Positions 26,049-54,114 of a DNA stretch of 64,000 nt are shown piece after piece. The stretch lies in IMG/VR virus record IMGVR_UViG_3300036985_006248, positions 62,001 through 126,000 of that record, one strand, 5' to 3'. The position numbers and the translations under genes are program-made. Numbering within the stretch: position 1 is the stretch's first letter; the number at the start of each line of letters is the position of its first letter. Origin of the DNA: a virus. The notes beneath the pieces were generated by a model. It ran no database searches and was not told the origin of the DNA. It saw nothing but the letters and a program-made list of their open reading frames with translations.

Positions 26049-26666
26049 TTAACTTCTACGCGACCTCTTTCCCTTGAAGATATTTTCAATGCCGCTGGAA
26101 CCGTCAAGCCAATTCTTAGGGACGCTAGCGCGAATTTCGTCTGCGGGGCGGCGCGTCAAGACTCTGACACCGTGGTCCTCATTTGCTTTATTCTTCGCGT
26201 TGACAGCGTTCGCTCGGAATGAATAACCGTATGAACTGTTACTGGTAAGGCCACGTCCCATAAGCGGACGTGAATAACAATTTTTTGATTGAATGTCATC
26301 CCAGCTAATAGATTCAAGTAGATACAGGTCGTCAGAAGCCAACCCTTCCAATGTATCAAAGTCTTGGACTACACCACCGAGGTTCTTGTAATATTTGTCA
26401 TAGAGGGTAATCAATGAACCAACCCCTAAACCATTCTCAGCCATATTATCAAGCACTCGCGCTCTGAATGCGGCGTTTTCCTTGATATAGTTAATCTTGT
26501 TGCCTTTGAGAACAATACAGGTGGGTCGGGTATGACCAGAGTCCCCGCAGTAACTACAGGTACGCACCTTAGCGGTCAGCTTGGTAATAGCCTTTTGTTC
26601 TGGCGTGAGCAGGTGGCAGGTACGTCTGTTATGACCCTTAGCTCCACAATATCTGCAATGTCGCAT
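26049..26666 (-). CDS. Double CCHC zinc-knuckle protein
   Basis: About 205 residues. CRYCGAKGHNRRTC and CSYCGDSGHTRPTC are two CxxCxxxGHxxxxC knuckles of the retroviral nucleocapsid type, which bind single-stranded nucleic acid. A helical middle and a basic end (IFKGKRSRRS) follow. The start MRHCRYCG was chosen because the longer frame crosses the promoter. Confidence 0.75.
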   Translation of the reverse strand: MRHCRYCGAKGHNRRTCHLLTPEQKAITKLTAKVRTCSYCGDSGHTRPTCIVLKGNKINYIKENAAFRARVLDNMAENGLGVGSLITLYDKYYKNLGGVVQDFDTLEGLASDDLYLLESISWDDIQSKNCYSRPLMGRGLTSNSSYGYSFRANAVNAKNKANEDHGVRVLTRRPADEIRASVPKNWLDGSSGIENIFKGKRSRRS

Positions 26667-26720
26667 CATGATATAAGCCCGTTCCCTTCTTGACTGCGCG
26701 GTTCCCCTACTGATATACCT

Positions 26721-26749
26721 ATAATACACCCACCTTGCCCACACGTCCA
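26721..26749 (-). promoter_or_regulatory. Promoter
   Basis: TGGACG, 17 bp, TATTAT, preceded by GAACTGTTCATGCAAAAAGA, a block also found before the 27.7-kb promoter. Confidence 0.75.
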
Positions 26750-26842
26750 CATCTTTTTGCATGAACAGTTCTAATCGATGCCCTCGTGCCTATTAGCCTT
26801 TTTTACTAGGACATGGCGGCTAGCTATGATATGGTGGATAAT

Positions 26843-26899
26843 TTATCCATTTAGCCCAGACCCAGACCCAGACCAAATAAAGCAGCGAGTAATTCTCAC
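26843..26899 (-). CDS. Repeat mini-ORF 4 (shortest)
   Basis: MRITRCFIWSGSGSGLNG, 18 residues, starting from a GTG that overlaps the previous stop as GTGA. It leaves the hexamer array into unique DNA. Translation is uncertain; it is listed because its header is the same as in the other three. Confidence 0.3.
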   Translation of the reverse strand: MRITRCFIWSGSGSGLNG

Positions 26900-26991
26900 G
26901 TTTCACCAGACCCAGACCAAGACCCAGACCAAGACCAAGACCAAGACCCAGACCTAGACCTAGACCAAATAAAGCAGCGAGTAATTCTCAC
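26896..26991 (-). CDS. Repeat mini-ORF 3
   Basis: 31 residues: MRITRCFIW then alternating Ser with Arg, Gly or Trp, ending GET. GTG start overlaps the stop of mini-ORF 2 (GTGA). Confidence 0.35.
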   Translation of the reverse strand: MRITRCFIWSRSRSGSWSWSWSGSWSGSGET

Positions 26992-27215
26992 GTTTCACCA
27001 GACCAAGACCTAGACCCAGACCAAGACCAAGACCAAGACCTAGACCAAGACCCAGACCCAGACCTAGACCAAGACCCAGACCTAGACCCAGACCTAGACC
27101 AAGACCCAGACCAAGACCCAGACCAAGACCCAGACCAAGACCCAGACCTAGACCCAGACCTAGACCAAGACCCAGACCAAGACCCAGACCAAATAAAGCA
27201 GCGAGTAATTCTCAC
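26988..27215 (-). CDS. Repeat mini-ORF 2 (longest)
   Basis: 75 residues: MRITRCFIW, then about 31 [WGR]-Ser dipeptides, ending GET. It starts with GTG overlapping the previous stop (GTGA). No known family; the sequence resembles a hypervariable Ser-rich linker. Confidence 0.4.
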   Translation of the reverse strand: MRITRCFIWSGSWSGSWSRSGSRSGSWSGSWSGSWSGSWSRSGSRSGSWSRSGSGSWSRSWSWSWSGSRSWSGET

Positions 27216-27403
27216 GTTTCACCAGACCCAGACCAAGACCCAGACCTAGACCCAGACCTAGACCAAGACCAAGACCCAGACCCAGACCCAGACCCAGACC
27301 CAGACCTAGACCCAGACCTAGACCCAGACCAAGACCCAGACCCAGACCCAGACCAAGACCCAGACCTAGACCAAATAAAGCAGCGAGTAATTCTCATTGT
27401 CAC
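27212..27403 (-). CDS. Repeat mini-ORF 1
   Basis: 63 residues: MTMRITRCFIW, then 25 [WGR]-Ser units and GET. Its GTG forms GTGA with the stop of the upstream gene, so ribosomes could enter the array by coupling. The other three mini-ORFs continue from it in the same way. Confidence 0.45.
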   Translation of the reverse strand: MTMRITRCFIWSRSGSWSGSGSGSWSGSRSGSRSGSGSGSGSGSWSWSRSGSRSGSWSGSGET

Positions 27404-27684
27404 TTCATGCGGATAAGTGCAGTGCCGCCTCGGTCAATAACCATTTCAAAAGCGCCTTCATGCTTCTGAACATCTTTCCCTTTGCCTGAGAAAAACTCCT
27501 TGTAGGTGCCGCTTTCGTAAACAGTGGCGGTATCAGTAAAGACAAACACTGTTCCGGTAACAGAATTCAATGTACCAGTATAGTGCAAAGTAGGAGTGCG
27601 AATATAATACTTAGCGCCAATCTTAAAGATTCCTTCTGACAATTCACCATCAGCAGCGACTTCGCGGGCATCATTGACGTTCAT
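27400..27684 (-). CDS. Conserved-type small protein (FKIGAKYYIRT motif)
   Basis: 94 residues. IFKIGAKYYIRTPTLHYTGT then LNSVTGTVFVFTDTATVYES and GTYKEFF follow a pattern I recall from small uncharacterised phage and bacterial proteins (G..Y.IRT.T..Y.G.L). All-beta and reminiscent of the SH3-like paralogues. AAAGGAAAAC precedes the ATG. It ends by overlapping the first repeat mini-ORF. Confidence 0.7.
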   Translation of the reverse strand: MNVNDAREVAADGELSEGIFKIGAKYYIRTPTLHYTGTLNSVTGTVFVFTDTATVYESGTYKEFFSGKGKDVQKHEGAFEMVIDRGGTALIRMK

Positions 27685-27742: not shown

Positions 27743-27839
27743 GAGCTTTTTGCATGAACAGTTCTAATGTCACATGCTATACTATAAGAGGTTTTACTTG
27801 ATAGTTGGCGGCTAGGTCACTCCCACACCCCGCGAGTAT

Positions 27840-32366: not shown

Positions 32367-33362
32367 TTATATTTTGTTAGGACTTTCTGACCAGTGGATT
32401 TTCACTTCTGGGACTTGTTCTGCTATCCACTCCTTCATCATACTCTCACTATTGAAGGAAAGCAAGCTTCCTTTTTTATCGTAGGCTTTCCATACTCCTA
32501 AGCTACGAAGAATATCAACCTTATTAACCACGAGATCGGTTACACCATTGATATCAATAGCCTTTTTTAAGAGTGACACATTTATCCAGTTGCATTGACG
32601 AGGGCGACCCGTGGTTGCACCGTACTCATTTCCTAATTCACGAATCTTTTTGAAGATTGGCTCGTCTGGTTCATATTTTTTGCCACCGACGTAGGTTTCA
32701 TACATTTTAGTAACACCCCAAACTTTACTGATTTTCCTAGGTGGCACTCCATTGAGAATAGCGGCTCCAACTGTACATGAGGAACTGGTTACATAAGGAT
32801 AGTCACCCCAATCTATATCTAAACCAAAGCCTTGAGCCCCTTCAAATAGAATGCGGTGCTTGTCTTTGCTAGAATATAATTCTTCATATAGGTCTATCAG
32901 ATAAGGTTTAAGTATTTCAACTTGTTCTGCTCTTAGCCCTTGTCTTGAATACTTATCAGCATAAGCTGGCCCGTTGCCGCGTTTAGTGGTGCCAATCTTA
33001 ACATCTTTTCTATCTTGCTCTAAATGTTCTTCCGTGATGATATGTACGTTCTTAGCGATGTAAACCAAGCCTTCAGTTTTAACACCCGCTTCAGTCAGCT
33101 CTTTCAATTCATCAAAGAACTGTTTAACATTCATAACACAACCGGGGCCAATGATAGACTTTATACCCATCACTACACCAGTTGGTATTGAATGAGTTAC
33201 AATCTTCTTTCCTTCATGGTATATTGTGTGGCCTGCGTTATTCGAACCTTGAAACCTTATACAATGTGTATATTCACCGCTTTTACAAAGCTGATGACAT
33301 ACTTTACCTTTACCGCTATCACCATACGCCAAATCTACTATTACGTCTGCAAACTCAATCAT
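32367..33362 (-). CDS. Adenylosuccinate synthetase, short PurA/PurZ-like
   Basis: 331 residues, about 100 shorter than bacterial PurA. The P-loop is YGDSGKGK (cellular PurA: WGDEGKGK). NNAGHT carries the catalytic His; GTTKRGNGPAYADKYSRQG, FEGAQGFGLDIDWGDYPYV and GATTGRPRQCNW match PurA active-site blocks. It joins aspartate to IMP, or to dGMP if it is PurZ of the 2-aminoadenine pathway. The short length and Ser in the P-loop fit the phage/archaeal branch that includes PurZ; I cannot settle which substrate it uses. Coupled by ATGA to a 32-residue ORF upstream. Confidence 0.9.
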   Translation of the reverse strand: MIEFADVIVDLAYGDSGKGKVCHQLCKSGEYTHCIRFQGSNNAGHTIYHEGKKIVTHSIPTGVVMGIKSIIGPGCVMNVKQFFDELKELTEAGVKTEGLVYIAKNVHIITEEHLEQDRKDVKIGTTKRGNGPAYADKYSRQGLRAEQVEILKPYLIDLYEELYSSKDKHRILFEGAQGFGLDIDWGDYPYVTSSSCTVGAAILNGVPPRKISKVWGVTKMYETYVGGKKYEPDEPIFKKIRELGNEYGATTGRPRQCNWINVSLLKKAIDINGVTDLVVNKVDILRSLGVWKAYDKKGSLLSFNSESMMKEWIAEQVPEVKIHWSESPNKI

Positions 33363-39818: not shown

Positions 39819-41399
39819 TTATATTTCGATAATAGCATGTGAGGTAGTCAGCAAGGTAGAAGCTGCACTAACTGCATTTTGTAAGGCACACCGCGTTACT
39901 TTGGCAGGGTCTATTATTCCTGCGTCTCCCATGTTAACATATTCTCCTGTTGCGAAGTTCATTCCTTCCCAGAAGCTTTCTGATTTTGTTGACAAATTGT
40001 GTATTATAACATCAGCTTTTAACCCACCATTTTCTGATAGTTTTCTGACTGGTTCTTCGCAAGCCTTCATAACAATTTCAATACCAAACTTCTCATCTTG
40101 GTTGCTTGCTTCCACGTCTTTGTCCAAGTCACGAGATAACTTCAGTAAAGCAGTTCCACCTCCCGGTAAGATACCCTCTATCTGGGCGCTCTTAACGGCT
40201 TCTAGGGCATCTTCAATACGATGCTTACGTTCTACCATATCTACCTCCGTTAATCCACCTACGCGAACTATGGCGATTCCAGAGGCTAATCTGCTGATAC
40301 GTTCCTGTATGCGTTCACACTCTCTTAAATCACTAGTGCTGGCAATCTCGGCTTTTAGGGCTTCAATACGCTTTTCTACTTCATCATAGTTGCCACCACC
40401 GCCGACAATTGTTGTCCACATCTTTAAACTGTCAATTGTTTTTACGGTTCCCAAGTGTTGACGCTTCACTTCACTAATAAGCATGCCACTTTCACGAGAA
40501 ACGAAAGTAGCGCCTGTTGCAAGAGCTAAGTCGTTAAGGATGTTTTTACGTTCCTCACCATATCGTGGAGCTTTTAAAGCAACAATCCGCATACTACCGC
40601 GTGTATTATTGAGTATGAGTGCCGCTAACAACTCTCCTTCAACCGGGTCACCAATTATAATAAACGGCTTATTCTCACGTTGGACTATCTCTAGTAACGG
40701 GAATATCTCTGTGATACTTGATAGGCTGTGGTCCGTAACTAATATAAGGGCGTTTTCATGTCTTACAGAGCCTCGCCGCTCATCATTGATAAACTCTCTT
40801 GAGATAAAACCACTGTCAAATTGAAAACCTTCAACAATATCTAATACAGTCTCAAGCGACTTGCCTTCTTCGATTGTTACAGCACCATCTTTACCAACCT
40901 TATCAACGGCTGTTGCTATAAGTTTGCCAATTTTATTATCACCATTTGCTGATATCGTTGCAATGTTTTCTACATCAGCAAGACTTGTTACCGGCTTGCT
41001 TACTAGTTTTATAGCTTCAACCAACTTTGCTGTGGCTTTTTCCATACCTCTTTTTAAGTCCGTTGGTGAAGCACCAGCAATAATATAACGCTGCGCTTGA
41101 TTGACTATTGCCCTTGCTAAGACAGTTGCCGTGGTGGTTCCGTCTCCAGCTTCAGTGGCTGTAACGGAAGAAGCCTGCTTTAATACTTGGGCTCCTGCAT
41201 TTTCGAACGGGTCATCAAATAATACTGCATTAGCTACCGTGATTCCATCCTTACTGATTACAGGGTTCTTGCCCTTGCTATGAATAATAACATTTCGTCC
41301 CTTGGGACCAAGTGTACAACTCACTGCATCAGCTAGCTTATTTACACCGGCTACAATCTTGGAATTTAGTGATTGTCCGTTATCATATACTTTCTTCAA
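39819..41399 (-). CDS. groEL: GroEL chaperonin
   Basis: 526 residues, nearly full length. TLGPKGRNVIIHSKGKNPVI, DGTTTATVLARAIV, ANGDNKIG, VTIEEGKSLET, LPGGGTALL and AGIIDPAKVTR are diagnostic GroEL segments. The GGM-rich tail of bacterial GroEL is missing. It starts at TTG with AAGGTG 11 bases upstream. It would fold phage proteins in the cytoplasm with the GroES-like protein encoded 21 kb away. Phage-encoded GroEL occurs in several jumbo phages. Confidence 0.97.
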   Translation of the reverse strand: MKKVYDNGQSLNSKIVAGVNKLADAVSCTLGPKGRNVIIHSKGKNPVISKDGITVANAVLFDDPFENAGAQVLKQASSVTATEAGDGTTTATVLARAIVNQAQRYIIAGASPTDLKRGMEKATAKLVEAIKLVSKPVTSLADVENIATISANGDNKIGKLIATAVDKVGKDGAVTIEEGKSLETVLDIVEGFQFDSGFISREFINDERRGSVRHENALILVTDHSLSSITEIFPLLEIVQRENKPFIIIGDPVEGELLAALILNNTRGSMRIVALKAPRYGEERKNILNDLALATGATFVSRESGMLISEVKRQHLGTVKTIDSLKMWTTIVGGGGNYDEVEKRIEALKAEIASTSDLRECERIQERISRLASGIAIVRVGGLTEVDMVERKHRIEDALEAVKSAQIEGILPGGGTALLKLSRDLDKDVEASNQDEKFGIEIVMKACEEPVRKLSENGGLKADVIIHNLSTKSESFWEGMNFATGEYVNMGDAGIIDPAKVTRCALQNAVSAASTLLTTSHAIIEI

Positions 41400-45952: not shown

Positions 45953-46759
45953 TTATACCTTCTTCTTGTTGCCGCCCAACGTTGCTAAATTCTTTCCACC
46001 GTGCGTTACGGAGTGTACTGCCTTGGCCGGAAGGTCTTCCATCTTGTGACCACCACTTCCACCTTTTTCGCCCTTGCCCATCTTCATATCGGCATGACCC
46101 TTAAACGTATCGTGCTTATTCTTGCCTTGTTTCAAGAGAGGACCACCACCTTTTGCATCCGTGGCTTCATCTAACTCTTCTTTTTTTTCTTTCTTCTTTT
46201 TGTCCTTCTTTGCCTTCATCTTTTCCTTAACGGACATTTTCTTTTTTTTTGCTTCAGAGATAAGACGTGCAGTAACGCGGGCTAGAACTGTTTCAACAAG
46301 GTTATCTTCTGATAATTCTTGTGTTTCTTCCATTTCATCTTCTTCGCCTTCTTCTTCGCCTTCTTCTTCGCCTTCTTCTTCGCCTTCTTCTTCGCCTTCT
46401 TCTTCGCCGCCTTCAAGGTCGTGCATTTCTTCACCACCTTCTTCAGCGTTTTCTTCTTGGCTTTCTAATTCAACTTCAATGCCCATTGAGTCGGCTAGAG
46501 CTTGGACAGCAGCTTCAAATGCTGCTTGCTTTTCCGGGTCTGCTTCGCCACCAACTTCAATTGTCTCGCCACCCATTTCATCGCCCATACCCATTTCTTC
46601 GCCTGCTGGTAAGGCTGCGGGAGCGGCTTCTGGACCCATTTCTTCCGGTGGAGCCATCGTGTTCATTTCATCGATGCGTGTTTTACCGAGTGATTCTATG
46701 TTAGCTAACTTCATAAAACGACGGATTTGTGTTTCCGACAGTAATTGTTTCTTGTTCAT
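45953..46759 (-). CDS. Acidic EEG-repeat protein with phage-type tag
   Basis: 268 residues. It starts MNKKQLLSETQIRRFMKLAN, a tag I recall from proteins of environmental phages. The middle is a (EEEG)n tract from a 12-bp DNA repeat; flanks are Met/Gly/Pro-rich. The C-terminal part is Lys-rich (KMSVKEKMKAKKDKKKK) and Gly/His-rich. The charge split suggests a scaffold or packaged protein. AGGAGA precedes the ATG. Confidence 0.7.
   Translation of the reverse strand: MNKKQLLSETQIRRFMKLANIESLGKTRIDEMNTMAPPEEMGPEAAPAALPAGEEMGMGDEMGGETIEVGGEADPEKQAAFEAAVQALADSMGIEVELESQEENAEEGGEEMHDLEGGEEEGEEEGEEEGEEEGEEEGEEDEMEETQELSEDNLVETVLARVTARLISEAKKKKMSVKEKMKAKKDKKKKEKKEELDEATDAKGGGPLLKQGKNKHDTFKGHADMKMGKGEKGGSGGHKMEDLPAKAVHSVTHGGKNLATLGGNKKKV
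46337..46410 (-). repeat. 12-bp minisatellite
   Basis: About six copies of GGCGAAGAAGAA encode GEEE units inside the acidic protein gene. Copy number probably varies by slippage. Confidence 0.8.
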
Positions 46760-50676: not shown

Positions 50677-53600
50677 TCAGCCTAACAATTTAAACGTATG
50701 CTTAATACTTCTTGTACTAAATCCCCAAGTATCATCGTATTGTAACTTTCCTAGATATGGTCGGTTAAGCCAAATCTTATCACGCTTTGGGTCAACCCCC
50801 CAGCATTTAATATTGGTAAGTTTATTTGTAATATCTGTAGTTTCTAGAATCCAGAATATCTTGCCGTTTTTTGTTTTCTTCTCAGTAATTTTACGTGGGA
50901 TAAACCATACTACCTCACCCAATGATGGGTCATAATCACCAATCGGTGGAATATATTTATCTTCAATGCTTTTTAAAGTCGCCGGGTCGAGCACAAGATT
51001 AATTGGATAAACTCCCGATAGCGAGACAAGATTTTCAATAGTTTCTTCCGTAGTAAAACTGCCTTCTGGCTTGTACTTGTCTATGTTCTCCAGCAGCTTC
51101 TTTGGTGTCTTTGGACGGTCAACCACTACTGCCGACCAAAAGTGTTTTAACCCAGTGAATCTCTTATCAACCAAAGAAGGCAAAGCGTTGCTTCTTGTTA
51201 AAGCGTCAAGGGCTTTTTTGTTTAACTTACTATAAATTATCTCTTCATTAAACAGCAGTTCCTCGACTGTCTTGAAAGGTCGATATTTCATTATTTCTGT
51301 CATGGCTGTATCTCCAAGTCCCTTAATAGATGACAGAGGTTGAATAAGTGTTTTATCGTCTAGGTTATCGACTTCCCATTTCGTACCTGAATTGTTGATA
51401 TCGAGTGGCTTGATGTTAAACCCATAGTATTTTGCTAGAGAAATAGCAGCTTCCTTTTTTTCCTCCGGTTCTTTATCGAGAAACGCCGCCGCCCATTCTG
51501 CTGGATGATGATGGAACAGGTAAGCACACTGATAAGAAATTATAGAATAACAGATAGCGTGTGATAAATTGAAACCGTACCCTGAAAAGAATTCCATAGT
51601 CTTCCAGAGATCGATACCGTTTTCTTCTGTTAATCCCTTCTCCACACACCCGTCAATAAACTTCTGATAAAGCTTAAGCTTGACTTGTGCTTCCTTGCCA
51701 GTTCCTTTCTTGGTGAGAACCTTCCGTAGTTCATTACCTTCATCTAGGGAAATGTTTTTACCAAGTTTGTGCGCTAACATGCTTAATTGCTCTTGGAAAA
51801 CTATGAATCCATGGGTTTCTTGCGTCACTTCTTTAATTAATGGATGAGCATATTTTATAGACTCAGGATTATTCTTAGCTAAGATATAATTCTCATGTAC
51901 GTTTGCCGATAAAGGACCGGGACGGAAGATAGAAGTAATGGCCGCGATATCTATGATGTTTTTTGGTTTAGCTAACATGCAGAATTTCTGAGCATTTTTG
52001 CTAGTGAACTGGAATGTTCCACAGAAGTTTCCTTCTTGGAAAATGTGTTCATAGACACCTTGGTCGTCTAGATTGATCTTTTCTGGATGGAGATTATCAT
52101 TGTAATACTTCTTGATATCCTCAAAGGTGGGCGTAGCAATGCCGTGGTGTCTTTTAAGAATGTGTTCAATCGCTGTTTCAATCATACGAAGAGAAGCAAG
52201 ACCAAGAATATCAAACTTGATAAACCCAAGTGGCTCTAAATGACGTACTGTTTGTCCTTCAGTCCAAGGGGTTTGTACAGTGCCACCACTATTGATTAGA
52301 GGCATCTTTTCATTGATATTATCTGCAAACAAAACTCCACCAGCATGGCGCGAAATAGAACGTACTTGCTTCTGCAAGTTTTCAACGTGTGTCGCAACAT
52401 GGGGATACTTTTTGATGTAAGCATTGAGTGCGGGACTGTGTTCCTTTAACTCTTCCCAAGTCGGTTCATATACACCAGCTATAATGCCGTGTATTTTCTT
52501 GCAAATAGGAGTAGCTTCGTTGAGCATCTTAGAAGTGACTTCGTTCACGTCTGTAAAAGGGATTTCGTATAACTTGCTAATATCTTTTACTAGAGAACGT
52601 GGCTTTAGAGTATTGTAGTTGGAAATAGGAACTACCGAGTTTTCTCCATACTCTTTGATAAGCAATTCCTTAATTGCCATAGGGTCGGAAACGTCAAAAT
52701 CGATATCGGGCATATCACTAAGATCTGTTTTGCGGATAAAACGTGAAAACTGTAATTTATACTTGATAGGGTCTATTTCTGTAATATTTAGCAAATATGA
52801 TACAAGAGAACCCGCTCCAGAACCACGGCCACCACCGCATAACTGTACTTCTTTGGACTTGTCGCTAATCTTCTTCATAGTCAAGAAGTATTTTGAGAAT
52901 CCACGGTCTTTAATGGTGTGAAGTTCTTCTTTTAATCTCTCAACGTAAGCGTTGTCTTTATAAAGCCCAGTGCTCTTTAACTTATCGACTGCCATTTTGG
53001 CTAATGCGGTATCTGCGGTTTCACCTTCGGGAACAACGAATGAAGGCAACTTAATGCTCGTATCGGGAATATAATTCTCAATACGGTTCTTAAGAATATC
53101 GTCTGTACGAGCAATAGACTCTTCGATAAGCTTATCATCATAGGAAAAGCCAAGGTTTTTTGAGAATAGTTTATAGGAGGCAAACAATTCATCGCCGTTC
53201 TTGGGATAAAGCTGATATTCCATCGCTTCTAGAGTAGAAGGCAGTGCGTCGATTTTAATTTCATTTCCACCCTTACCAGCCCAACCGAGCATCTTATAGA
53301 TTTCGCGGTCCTTCCACATATCCGGTGAAGGAAAGTGTGCATCACACGTACTGATGAGCTTGAAGCCTAGCTGTTTAGAAATATTGATGATATATTGATT
53401 AACAATGTGTTGCTCTTTGTAATTCGCCCACTGTAATTCACCATAAAAGCGATCACCAAAGATATCCATCATAGACTTAACAGTCTTTTCCATGGCAGCG
53501 TAAACAGCCCTTTCTCCCTTGTCGATATTATCCCAATAATCATTGGCTAACACTCCACCCAGACAGGCAGAACTGGCGATGAGTCCTTCGTTGTGCTTCT

Positions 53601-54114
53601 TGAGCATTTCATAATCCATACGTGGGTAGCGATAAAAGTTATCACCACGATATGAATCACTAACCAACTTGAAAAGATTGTTTAAACCAATCTGGTTTTG
53701 GGCTACCAACACCAAGTGCGAACGACGATTTAAGGTTGAACGAATGCCTTTCTTAGTTTCGCTTTCATTTTCGACAACTAGTCCAACATCGTCGTCAACA
53801 TGCTTTGCAAGCTTGGCGTCATCTTTGTGCTTGCTGTGTTCTCCCTTCCATTGAATTATGGATGGGTGGACGTATGCCTCAATACCATACATAACGCGAA
53901 AATCTTTACCTTCTTCTTTCATCTTCTTCGCCTTCATAAAAGCATAGCTAAAGCTATTGCAATTTCCATGCTCTGTAAAAGCAATACCTTGCAGTCCATT
54001 TTGAAAGCCGAAATCGATATGTTCTTCGGGATACCCGAGGCCATCAAAAATAGAATATGTAGTGTGCGTATGCAGGTTCACGAAAGGAATACTGGTCTTC
54101 TTGCGCTCTGACAT
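50677..54114 (-). CDS. dnaE: DNA polymerase III alpha subunit (DnaE-type)
   Basis: 1145 residues. LHTHTTYSIFDGL opens the PHP domain; DIDFDVSDP near residue 467 holds two catalytic aspartates of the C-family palm; SRHAGGVLFA (about 590), FKFDILGL-type, and LTKKGTG are polymerase core motifs. It is the phage replicase and needs a clamp and a clamp loader from the host or elsewhere in the genome. No 3'-5' exonuclease is present; a DnaQ-like gene lies 13 kb away. GGAGAAACA precedes the ATG. Confidence 0.97.
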   Translation of the reverse strand: MSERKKTSIPFVNLHTHTTYSIFDGLGYPEEHIDFGFQNGLQGIAFTEHGNCNSFSYAFMKAKKMKEEGKDFRVMYGIEAYVHPSIIQWKGEHSKHKDDAKLAKHVDDDVGLVVENESETKKGIRSTLNRRSHLVLVAQNQIGLNNLFKLVSDSYRGDNFYRYPRMDYEMLKKHNEGLIASSACLGGVLANDYWDNIDKGERAVYAAMEKTVKSMMDIFGDRFYGELQWANYKEQHIVNQYIINISKQLGFKLISTCDAHFPSPDMWKDREIYKMLGWAGKGGNEIKIDALPSTLEAMEYQLYPKNGDELFASYKLFSKNLGFSYDDKLIEESIARTDDILKNRIENYIPDTSIKLPSFVVPEGETADTALAKMAVDKLKSTGLYKDNAYVERLKEELHTIKDRGFSKYFLTMKKISDKSKEVQLCGGGRGSGAGSLVSYLLNITEIDPIKYKLQFSRFIRKTDLSDMPDIDFDVSDPMAIKELLIKEYGENSVVPISNYNTLKPRSLVKDISKLYEIPFTDVNEVTSKMLNEATPICKKIHGIIAGVYEPTWEELKEHSPALNAYIKKYPHVATHVENLQKQVRSISRHAGGVLFADNINEKMPLINSGGTVQTPWTEGQTVRHLEPLGFIKFDILGLASLRMIETAIEHILKRHHGIATPTFEDIKKYYNDNLHPEKINLDDQGVYEHIFQEGNFCGTFQFTSKNAQKFCMLAKPKNIIDIAAITSIFRPGPLSANVHENYILAKNNPESIKYAHPLIKEVTQETHGFIVFQEQLSMLAHKLGKNISLDEGNELRKVLTKKGTGKEAQVKLKLYQKFIDGCVEKGLTEENGIDLWKTMEFFSGYGFNLSHAICYSIISYQCAYLFHHHPAEWAAAFLDKEPEEKKEAAISLAKYYGFNIKPLDINNSGTKWEVDNLDDKTLIQPLSSIKGLGDTAMTEIMKYRPFKTVEELLFNEEIIYSKLNKKALDALTRSNALPSLVDKRFTGLKHFWSAVVVDRPKTPKKLLENIDKYKPEGSFTTEETIENLVSLSGVYPINLVLDPATLKSIEDKYIPPIGDYDPSLGEVVWFIPRKITEKKTKNGKIFWILETTDITNKLTNIKCWGVDPKRDKIWLNRPYLGKLQYDDTWGFSTRSIKHTFKLLG

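Follow-up and report, generated by a model that had tools for sequence, protein, structure and literature searches.

Organization of the locus in the window

The window, by which we mean the whole stretch of 64,000 nucleotides analysed here, is part of a virus record of 174,280 bases. By direct reading and recomputation, it contains four minus-strand ORFs between 27397 and 26843, each composed of a common header followed by (TCTNGG)n, and these are accompanied by an upstream gene, gene A, and by two copies of a short element, as follows.

27400..27684, minus strand: gene A, 94 aa, with a predicted Sm/LSm-like fold; first gene of the module and a divergent member
27397-27212, minus strand: SX ORF1, ATG start, 61 aa, MRITRCFIW-(S[RGW])n-GET, begins after a 2-nt gap from the gene A stop
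27215-26988, minus strand: SX ORF2, GTG start, 75 aa, GTGA coupling
26991-26896, minus strand: SX ORF3, GTG start, 31 aa, GTGA coupling
26899-26843, minus strand: SX ORF4, GTG start, 18 aa, 3 units only, TAA end
27227-27370, minus strand: array block 1, 24 perfect TCTNGG units followed by TCTGGT
27003-27188, minus strand: array block 2, 31 perfect TCTNGG units followed by TCTGGT
26911-26964, minus strand: array block 3, 9 perfect TCTNGG units followed by TCTGGT
26855-26872, minus strand: array block 4, 3 TCTGGG units
27746..27767, minus strand: 22-nt element TTAGAACTGTTCATGCAAAAAG, copy 1, upstream of gene A
26753..26774, minus strand: 22-nt element, copy 2, downstream of the array, just before the next gene

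The headers of the four ORFs (A/GTGAGAATTACTCGCTGCTTTATTTGG) differ in the first letter only, and the TGA of each ORF overlaps the GTG of the following one as GTGA. The encoded peptides, here termed SX, begin with (M/V)RITRCFIW and continue with Ser-X units; ORF4 is possibly a remnant of an array ORF. The first-pass annotation had described an array with 25, 32, 10 and 3 units in four ORFs chained by GTGA between the same headers, and both descriptions were borne out, the counts corresponding to 24, 31, 9 and 3 perfect units plus the terminal TCTGGT of blocks 1-3. The span that it drew to 27403 does enclose the array, but the first start codon lies at 27397. Its peptide formula, MRITRCFIW-[WGR S]n-GET, describes ORFs 1-3, where it can be refined to a Ser-X dipeptide array, but not ORF4, which has no GET terminus.

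There are 55 matches to (TCTNGG)x4 in the window and none in 100 dinucleotide shuffles, which excludes a chance origin of the array; all 55 matches in the 174 kb record fall inside this one array. Block 2 contains an internal 9-unit repeat (p about 0.005). The Rfam search gave no match, and no close relative of the window phage was found in the collection searched.

Distribution of the two-gene module and the predicted fold of gene A

When public viral contigs were scanned for exact runs of eight TCTNGG units, at least 120 stretches were returned, and arrays with a variable N were found at 102 loci, the window included. ATG opens the Ser-X frame in 137 of 155 variable arrays. Clustering of neighbouring genes revealed a conserved gene of ~90-115 aa; in 71 of the 102 loci it shares the strand of the array and ends directly before it. 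Alone among the window ORFs, gene A matched the profile of 23 loci that did not include the window (E 2.1e-12), and it also matched the sister-family profile (E 2.2e-6). Its relatives fall into two homologous families, F1 and F2 (hhalign E 3e-12). Searching viral contigs with gene A alone yielded 190 and 393 relatives, and in the best 159 loci, which were analysed further, at least one same-strand SX cistron was located downstream in 145 and at least two in 30, with up to 14 cistrons and no gene A-SX fusion. The commonest spacing between the two genes is a 4-nt overlap (54/140), and a 1-nt overlap accounts for 14/140; such overlap of the SX start with the gene A stop, as ATGA or TAATG, suggests translational coupling. 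In the window, the first array ORF likewise follows a gene A homologue encoded on its own strand, here across a 2-nt gap, and consists of a start-codon-led leader and in-frame (Ser-[RGW])n. In some phages, SX cistrons also stand away from gene A, indicating that the two can be uncoupled.

Judging from these contigs, the module is carried by hundreds of uncultured phages (several hundred or more) and the gene pair has been missed by standard family libraries; the first-pass annotation saw neither the relatives nor the conserved upstream Sm-fold gene. Across 50,697 phage records, the gene A families had almost no match, with one groundwater genome per family. In one of these two genomes, MW202573, the 'hypothetical protein' UOF78858.1, encoded downstream of a gene A homologue, reads MNAAIIRAGLDASWSWSWSWSRSRSWSWSGSRSGSRSRSGSGS. 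Members of the module have therefore already been deposited, though no description of the two-gene system was found in the literature searched, which consisted of published open-licence papers; the first-pass annotation had likewise recognised no described equivalent. In MW202825 (L248 5641-6020), SX-like cistrons combine TCG and TCT as Ser codons and contain numerous Leu units (TTG), exemplifying a decayed or looser array. The surroundings of related loci vary and are by inspection of a DNA-metabolism kind, including helicase/primase-like, methyltransferase-like and recombination proteins.

In bacterial genomes, the TCTNGG pattern is represented almost exclusively by monotonous repeats. A bacterial origin of the array was rejected, as nearly all bacterial matches are monotonous chance repeats such as (TCTCGG)n. 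One Methylomonas sp. (L179 7871-7996) has a Ser-Arg/Ser-Gly array (TCTAGG/TCTGGG) with no Trp and no ATG leader, which is probably unrelated. In searches for a host link, the only match among 380 genomes from the phylum of a Patescibacteria MAG was this MAG, and 0 of 399 genomes from the phylum of a Limnohabitans MAG matched; neither result gave a firm host assignment.

The AlphaFold2 model of an F1 representative has a pLDDT of 92.5 and six strands, and its listed Foldseek matches in the PDB are all Sm/LSm proteins, the best being 1i8f, an archaeal SmAP heptamer (E 5.4e-4, TM 0.81 on the target). The model of the window gene A is of modest confidence (AF2 pLDDT 70); its top 50 PDB matches are Sm/LSm chains, with a best E of 5.5e-3 and none below E 0.001. 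By prediction, both proteins contain the five-stranded Sm-like beta fold, all models being of monomers. Among the viral structural matches are DUF6948 proteins and an 'RNA binding protein' of a Gordonia phage. Sequence searches with F1, F2 and gene A gave no Sm, LSm or Hfq family match in Pfam, PHROGs or PDB sequences and no Pfam or PHROG match of any kind, and NCBIfam returned only a weak, sub-cutoff match to MM0924. Because no Sm family is recovered by sequence, we call gene A Sm-fold and do not assign it to any named Sm family.

Coding constraint and turnover of the array

Within each array the Ser codon is nearly uniform, being TCG in most loci and TCT, AGC, TCA or AGT in the others. Because it differs between phages while the Ser-X product stays, selection acts on the peptide. 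The alternative frames (Leu-Gly and x-Val) were discarded, since a constant product and start-led leaders are found in the Ser-X frame only. The leaders likewise evolve as protein in this frame: between pairs picked by nucleotide identity alone, third codon positions carried 698 changes against 459 and 352 at the other two, and the ratio of silent to replacement changes, 430:589 for the Ser-X frame, was lower in both alternative frames (150:845 and 87:886). These results bear on the possibility that the repeat is a DNA- or RNA-level element, such as a binding-site array, a decoy or a G-quadruplex tract, in which the ORFs are incidental. Such an element would account for the dense GG runs and for a hexamer that is invariant in the window, but not for a hexamer that differs by phage (TCTNGG, TCGNGG, AGCNGG, TCANGG, AGTNGG) with a constant product, for protein-like leaders, or for arrays that follow a start codon behind gene A. 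We regard it as largely refuted and very improbable, and the binding-site array suggested in the first-pass annotation falls with it, as the Ser codon varies freely between phages and the peptide is constant.

Counted over 232 distinct arrays with 12 or more units, Arg, Gly and Trp occupy X at 1628:1688:1548, which is near 1:1:1, and Glu, Lys, Met, Leu and Val units also occur in relatives' arrays. NGG codons account for about 97% of the Gly and Arg units despite synonymous alternatives, as would be expected if a run of NGG stalled ribosomes or tied up CCN-anticodon tRNAs and SX genes were translation-perturbing minigenes. Early NGG codons in a gene reduce expression in E. coli. We nevertheless consider such a codon-level effect improbable, given that the Ser codon is free to vary between phages, that the five other kinds of unit are present and that exclusive use of one Arg codon is not predicted by it. 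Moreover, no codon set other than NGG allows a single change of the first base to convert Arg, Gly and Trp into one another, and the bias is therefore explained by the copying of units.

Arg is encoded by AGG only in 90 arrays and by CGG only in 113, and the two are mixed in 11, against 161.7 +/- 5.8 mixed arrays expected if they were independent. The statement of the first-pass annotation that N is G, T or A and never C is thus true of the window but not of its relatives, which may use CGG; as nearly all arrays use AGG only or CGG only, the missing C reflects one phage's choice of AGG for Arg. A mutation spectrum from G to A or T was rejected as its cause, since A is lacking from CGG arrays. 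The same codon counts weigh against targeted mutagenesis at N in the style of a diversity-generating retroelement, with TCTAGG as template and A changed to N. Diversity-generating retroelements resemble the SX array in that variation is limited to set codon positions of a coding array, and the single variable base per unit coincides with the sole adenine of TCTAGG. However, base randomisation at N is not supported, because it would mix AGG and CGG, which almost never mix. Adenine-specific change to all four bases was not observed, and near-identical relatives differ by gains and losses of whole in-frame units. Nor did the reverse transcriptase that the first-pass annotation had proposed to look for elsewhere in the genome emerge: RVT_1 (PF00078) is absent from the 174 kb record, which may be incomplete, in a search whose control was positive in 3 of 14 genomes. 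Targeted mutagenesis is accordingly even less credible than a nucleic acid element.

To compare repeat registers, we took the longest array per stretch and scored it as a three-letter array if three letters occurred at N, each at least twice. Three-letter arrays made up 75/120 of the TCTNGG stretches among the matches listed and 100/119 of the TCGNGG stretches, against 0/22 and 0/117 in the control registers TCTGNG and TCTGGN (0/139 together) and 1/119 for bacterial TCTNGG. Since the control registers lack such arrays, confinement of variation to the first base of NGG is a specific property and not a general one of hexamer repeats. The controls also speak against neutral slippage or an assembly artefact with no function, an account that draws on the tendency of simple repeats to slip, on contigs that often break at the array and on the chance monotonous (TCTCGG)n of bacterial genomes. 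We give it a low probability: selection is needed because leaders, the partner gene, the ~1:1:1 composition and the Ser-X frame persist across hundreds of contigs.

Array turnover was evident from pairs of other phages, mostly metagenome assemblies, rather than from the window phage's own lineage. Four contig pairs (L261/L262, L263/L267, L291/L293 and L295/L299) are 100% identical over 650+ nt that cover gene A and the flank upstream of it, yet their arrays differ by clear gain or loss of in-frame units, and in a fifth (L265/L266) the flanks are 99.7% identical and the SX arrays are unlike throughout. Other identical-flank pairs have identical arrays too, several of them probably one genome assembled twice. 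Contigs end within 300 nt of the module 25 times on the array side against 2 times upstream, as expected from population variation or simply from repeats that are hard to assemble, and misassembly may account for some of the contig-to-contig differences in array length. Inside arrays, 3874 units showed 76, 114 and 293 changes at positions 1, 2 and 5, against 28 and 56 at the silent positions 3 and 6. That silent third positions are the least variable fits fast unit copying combined with selection for a mixed alphabet. Equal neighbouring units are rarer than in shuffles (1454 vs 1613 +/- 31), and units that lie six apart match in excess.

The slippage-prone or diversifying coding array envisaged by the first-pass annotation is therefore upheld, with a conserved Ser-X frame and arrays that differ between phages with identical flanks. 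Its suggestion of phase variation is not indicated, because the changes are in frame. Phase-variable bacterial coding microsatellites are similar to SX in being short in-gene repeats that change copy number, whereas the 6-nt unit of SX preserves the frame and provides no on/off switch, and it is composition rather than frame that is conserved.

A possible role of SX and the genomic setting

Our preferred reading, to which we give about even chances, is a coding array whose units turn over fast and in frame under selection for composition, and which supplies the disordered SX partner of an Sm-fold protein acting on RNA. Gene A, with its predicted Sm/LSm-like beta-fold product, is the first of a two-gene viral module. 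The next gene, usually overlapping the gene A stop and at times tandem-copied, encodes a short basic peptide made of a conserved leader of ~10-12 residues and (Ser-X)n, with X being Arg, Gly or Trp near equally. The array DNA undergoes rapid turnover through gain, loss and shuffling of 6-nt units, which leaves each array homogeneous in its silent letters, and selection maintains the Ser-X alternation and the R/G/W mix. The peptide would then act as a disordered, positively charged, Trp-containing 'tail in trans' for the Sm-fold protein on RNA, with chaperone, sequestering or condensate-forming functions as candidate activities during infection; its length and composition would matter, and the exact unit order would be free. 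The layout of the module and the hypervariability of its arrays are demonstrated here; that it may involve ring formation, RNA binding, interaction of both products and a condensate we infer.

Many Sm-fold proteins act with disordered tails, such as the C-terminal domain of Hfq and the RG tails of SmB, D1 and D3. The disordered C-terminal domain of Hfq is described in PMC5606850. The likeness of the module to Sm/LSm proteins (Hfq, archaeal SmAP) is the predicted fold of gene A, which differs in having no sequence-family match and is known here from monomer predictions, not rings. The tail-like peptide differs in being a separate hypervariable gene product with Trp and in being virus-confined in the genomes searched. 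SX also resembles eukaryotic SR/RS and RGG domains, with Ser alternating with Arg/Gly, a basic and low-complexity composition and an RNA-binding-type fold adjacent, but it is a free phage peptide with one third of X as Trp, a strict dipeptide register and fast turnover; we claim no homology for this likeness. Sm folds and Arg-rich low-complexity tails are each of already known kinds; it is the two-gene system as a whole for which the literature searched yielded no description. More tentatively, the module may be an RNA-handling system exclusive to viruses, with an Sm-fold protein paired in trans with a rapidly rewritten Arg/Gly/Trp peptide, a natural sticker-and-spacer polymer selected for its composition but free in its sequence, which possibly builds phage condensates or silences host RNA.

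The main rival, ahead of the codon-level effect, is that SX is an antagonist, either an Arg/Trp-rich host-inhibiting peptide or a ligand sensed by host defence, whose variation is driven by an arms race. The basic, Trp-rich composition, the tandem variant copies, the fast array change beside a conserved leader and flanks, and the excess of replacements over silent changes inside the arrays (3874 units) are all compatible with this. It is nonetheless unlikely in our judgement, because a near 1:1:1 composition in unrelated phages fits a bulk-composition constraint better than escape, PADLOC gave no match, and the tight pairing with the Sm-fold gene is left unexplained. Returning to the tail in trans, if the Sm-fold link holds, phages would own an RNA-binding ring whose disordered partner is tunable and encoded by a gene of its own, and this would be relevant to how phages control RNA of the host and of the virus. 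The arrays also offer a natural experiment in the evolution of a low-complexity peptide that retains no more than its composition and alternation, and their turnover and synonymous history can be read from the arrays themselves.

The 22-nt element is present in exactly two copies in the 174 kb record, flanking the module (20-nt core, 3 mismatches allowed), and a sigma-70-like match, TGGACG-17-TATTAT, follows the second copy. Each copy possibly precedes a promoter, and the element is likely to be regulatory; co-regulation of gene A and the post-array gene through it is a guess. The post-array gene (26049-26762, minus strand), with the 22-nt element upstream, lies directly past the array and encodes 237 aa with two C-x2-C-x4-H-x4-C (CCHC) zinc knuckles. 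It is not a conserved neighbour in related loci, and its candidacy as a conserved third partner was dropped for lack of support from the neighbours in relatives.

Elsewhere in the window, 32367-33362 (minus strand) encodes a PurZ-type adenylosuccinate synthetase (PHROG 1211, '2-aminooxy adenylosuccinate synthetase', E 1.7e-68), so the phage may carry 2-aminoadenine DNA; a PF04447 search of the record was empty, and its positive control likewise gave no match. A phage-encoded chaperonin GroEL (PHROG 5725, E 1.5e-144) is located at 39819-41399 (minus strand), and a DnaE-type DNA polymerase III alpha with <60% identity to any phage record at 50677-54114 (minus strand). A 12-nt tandem repeat, TCTTCTTCGCCT, is present in 5.9 perfect copies within a coding region at 46338-46408.
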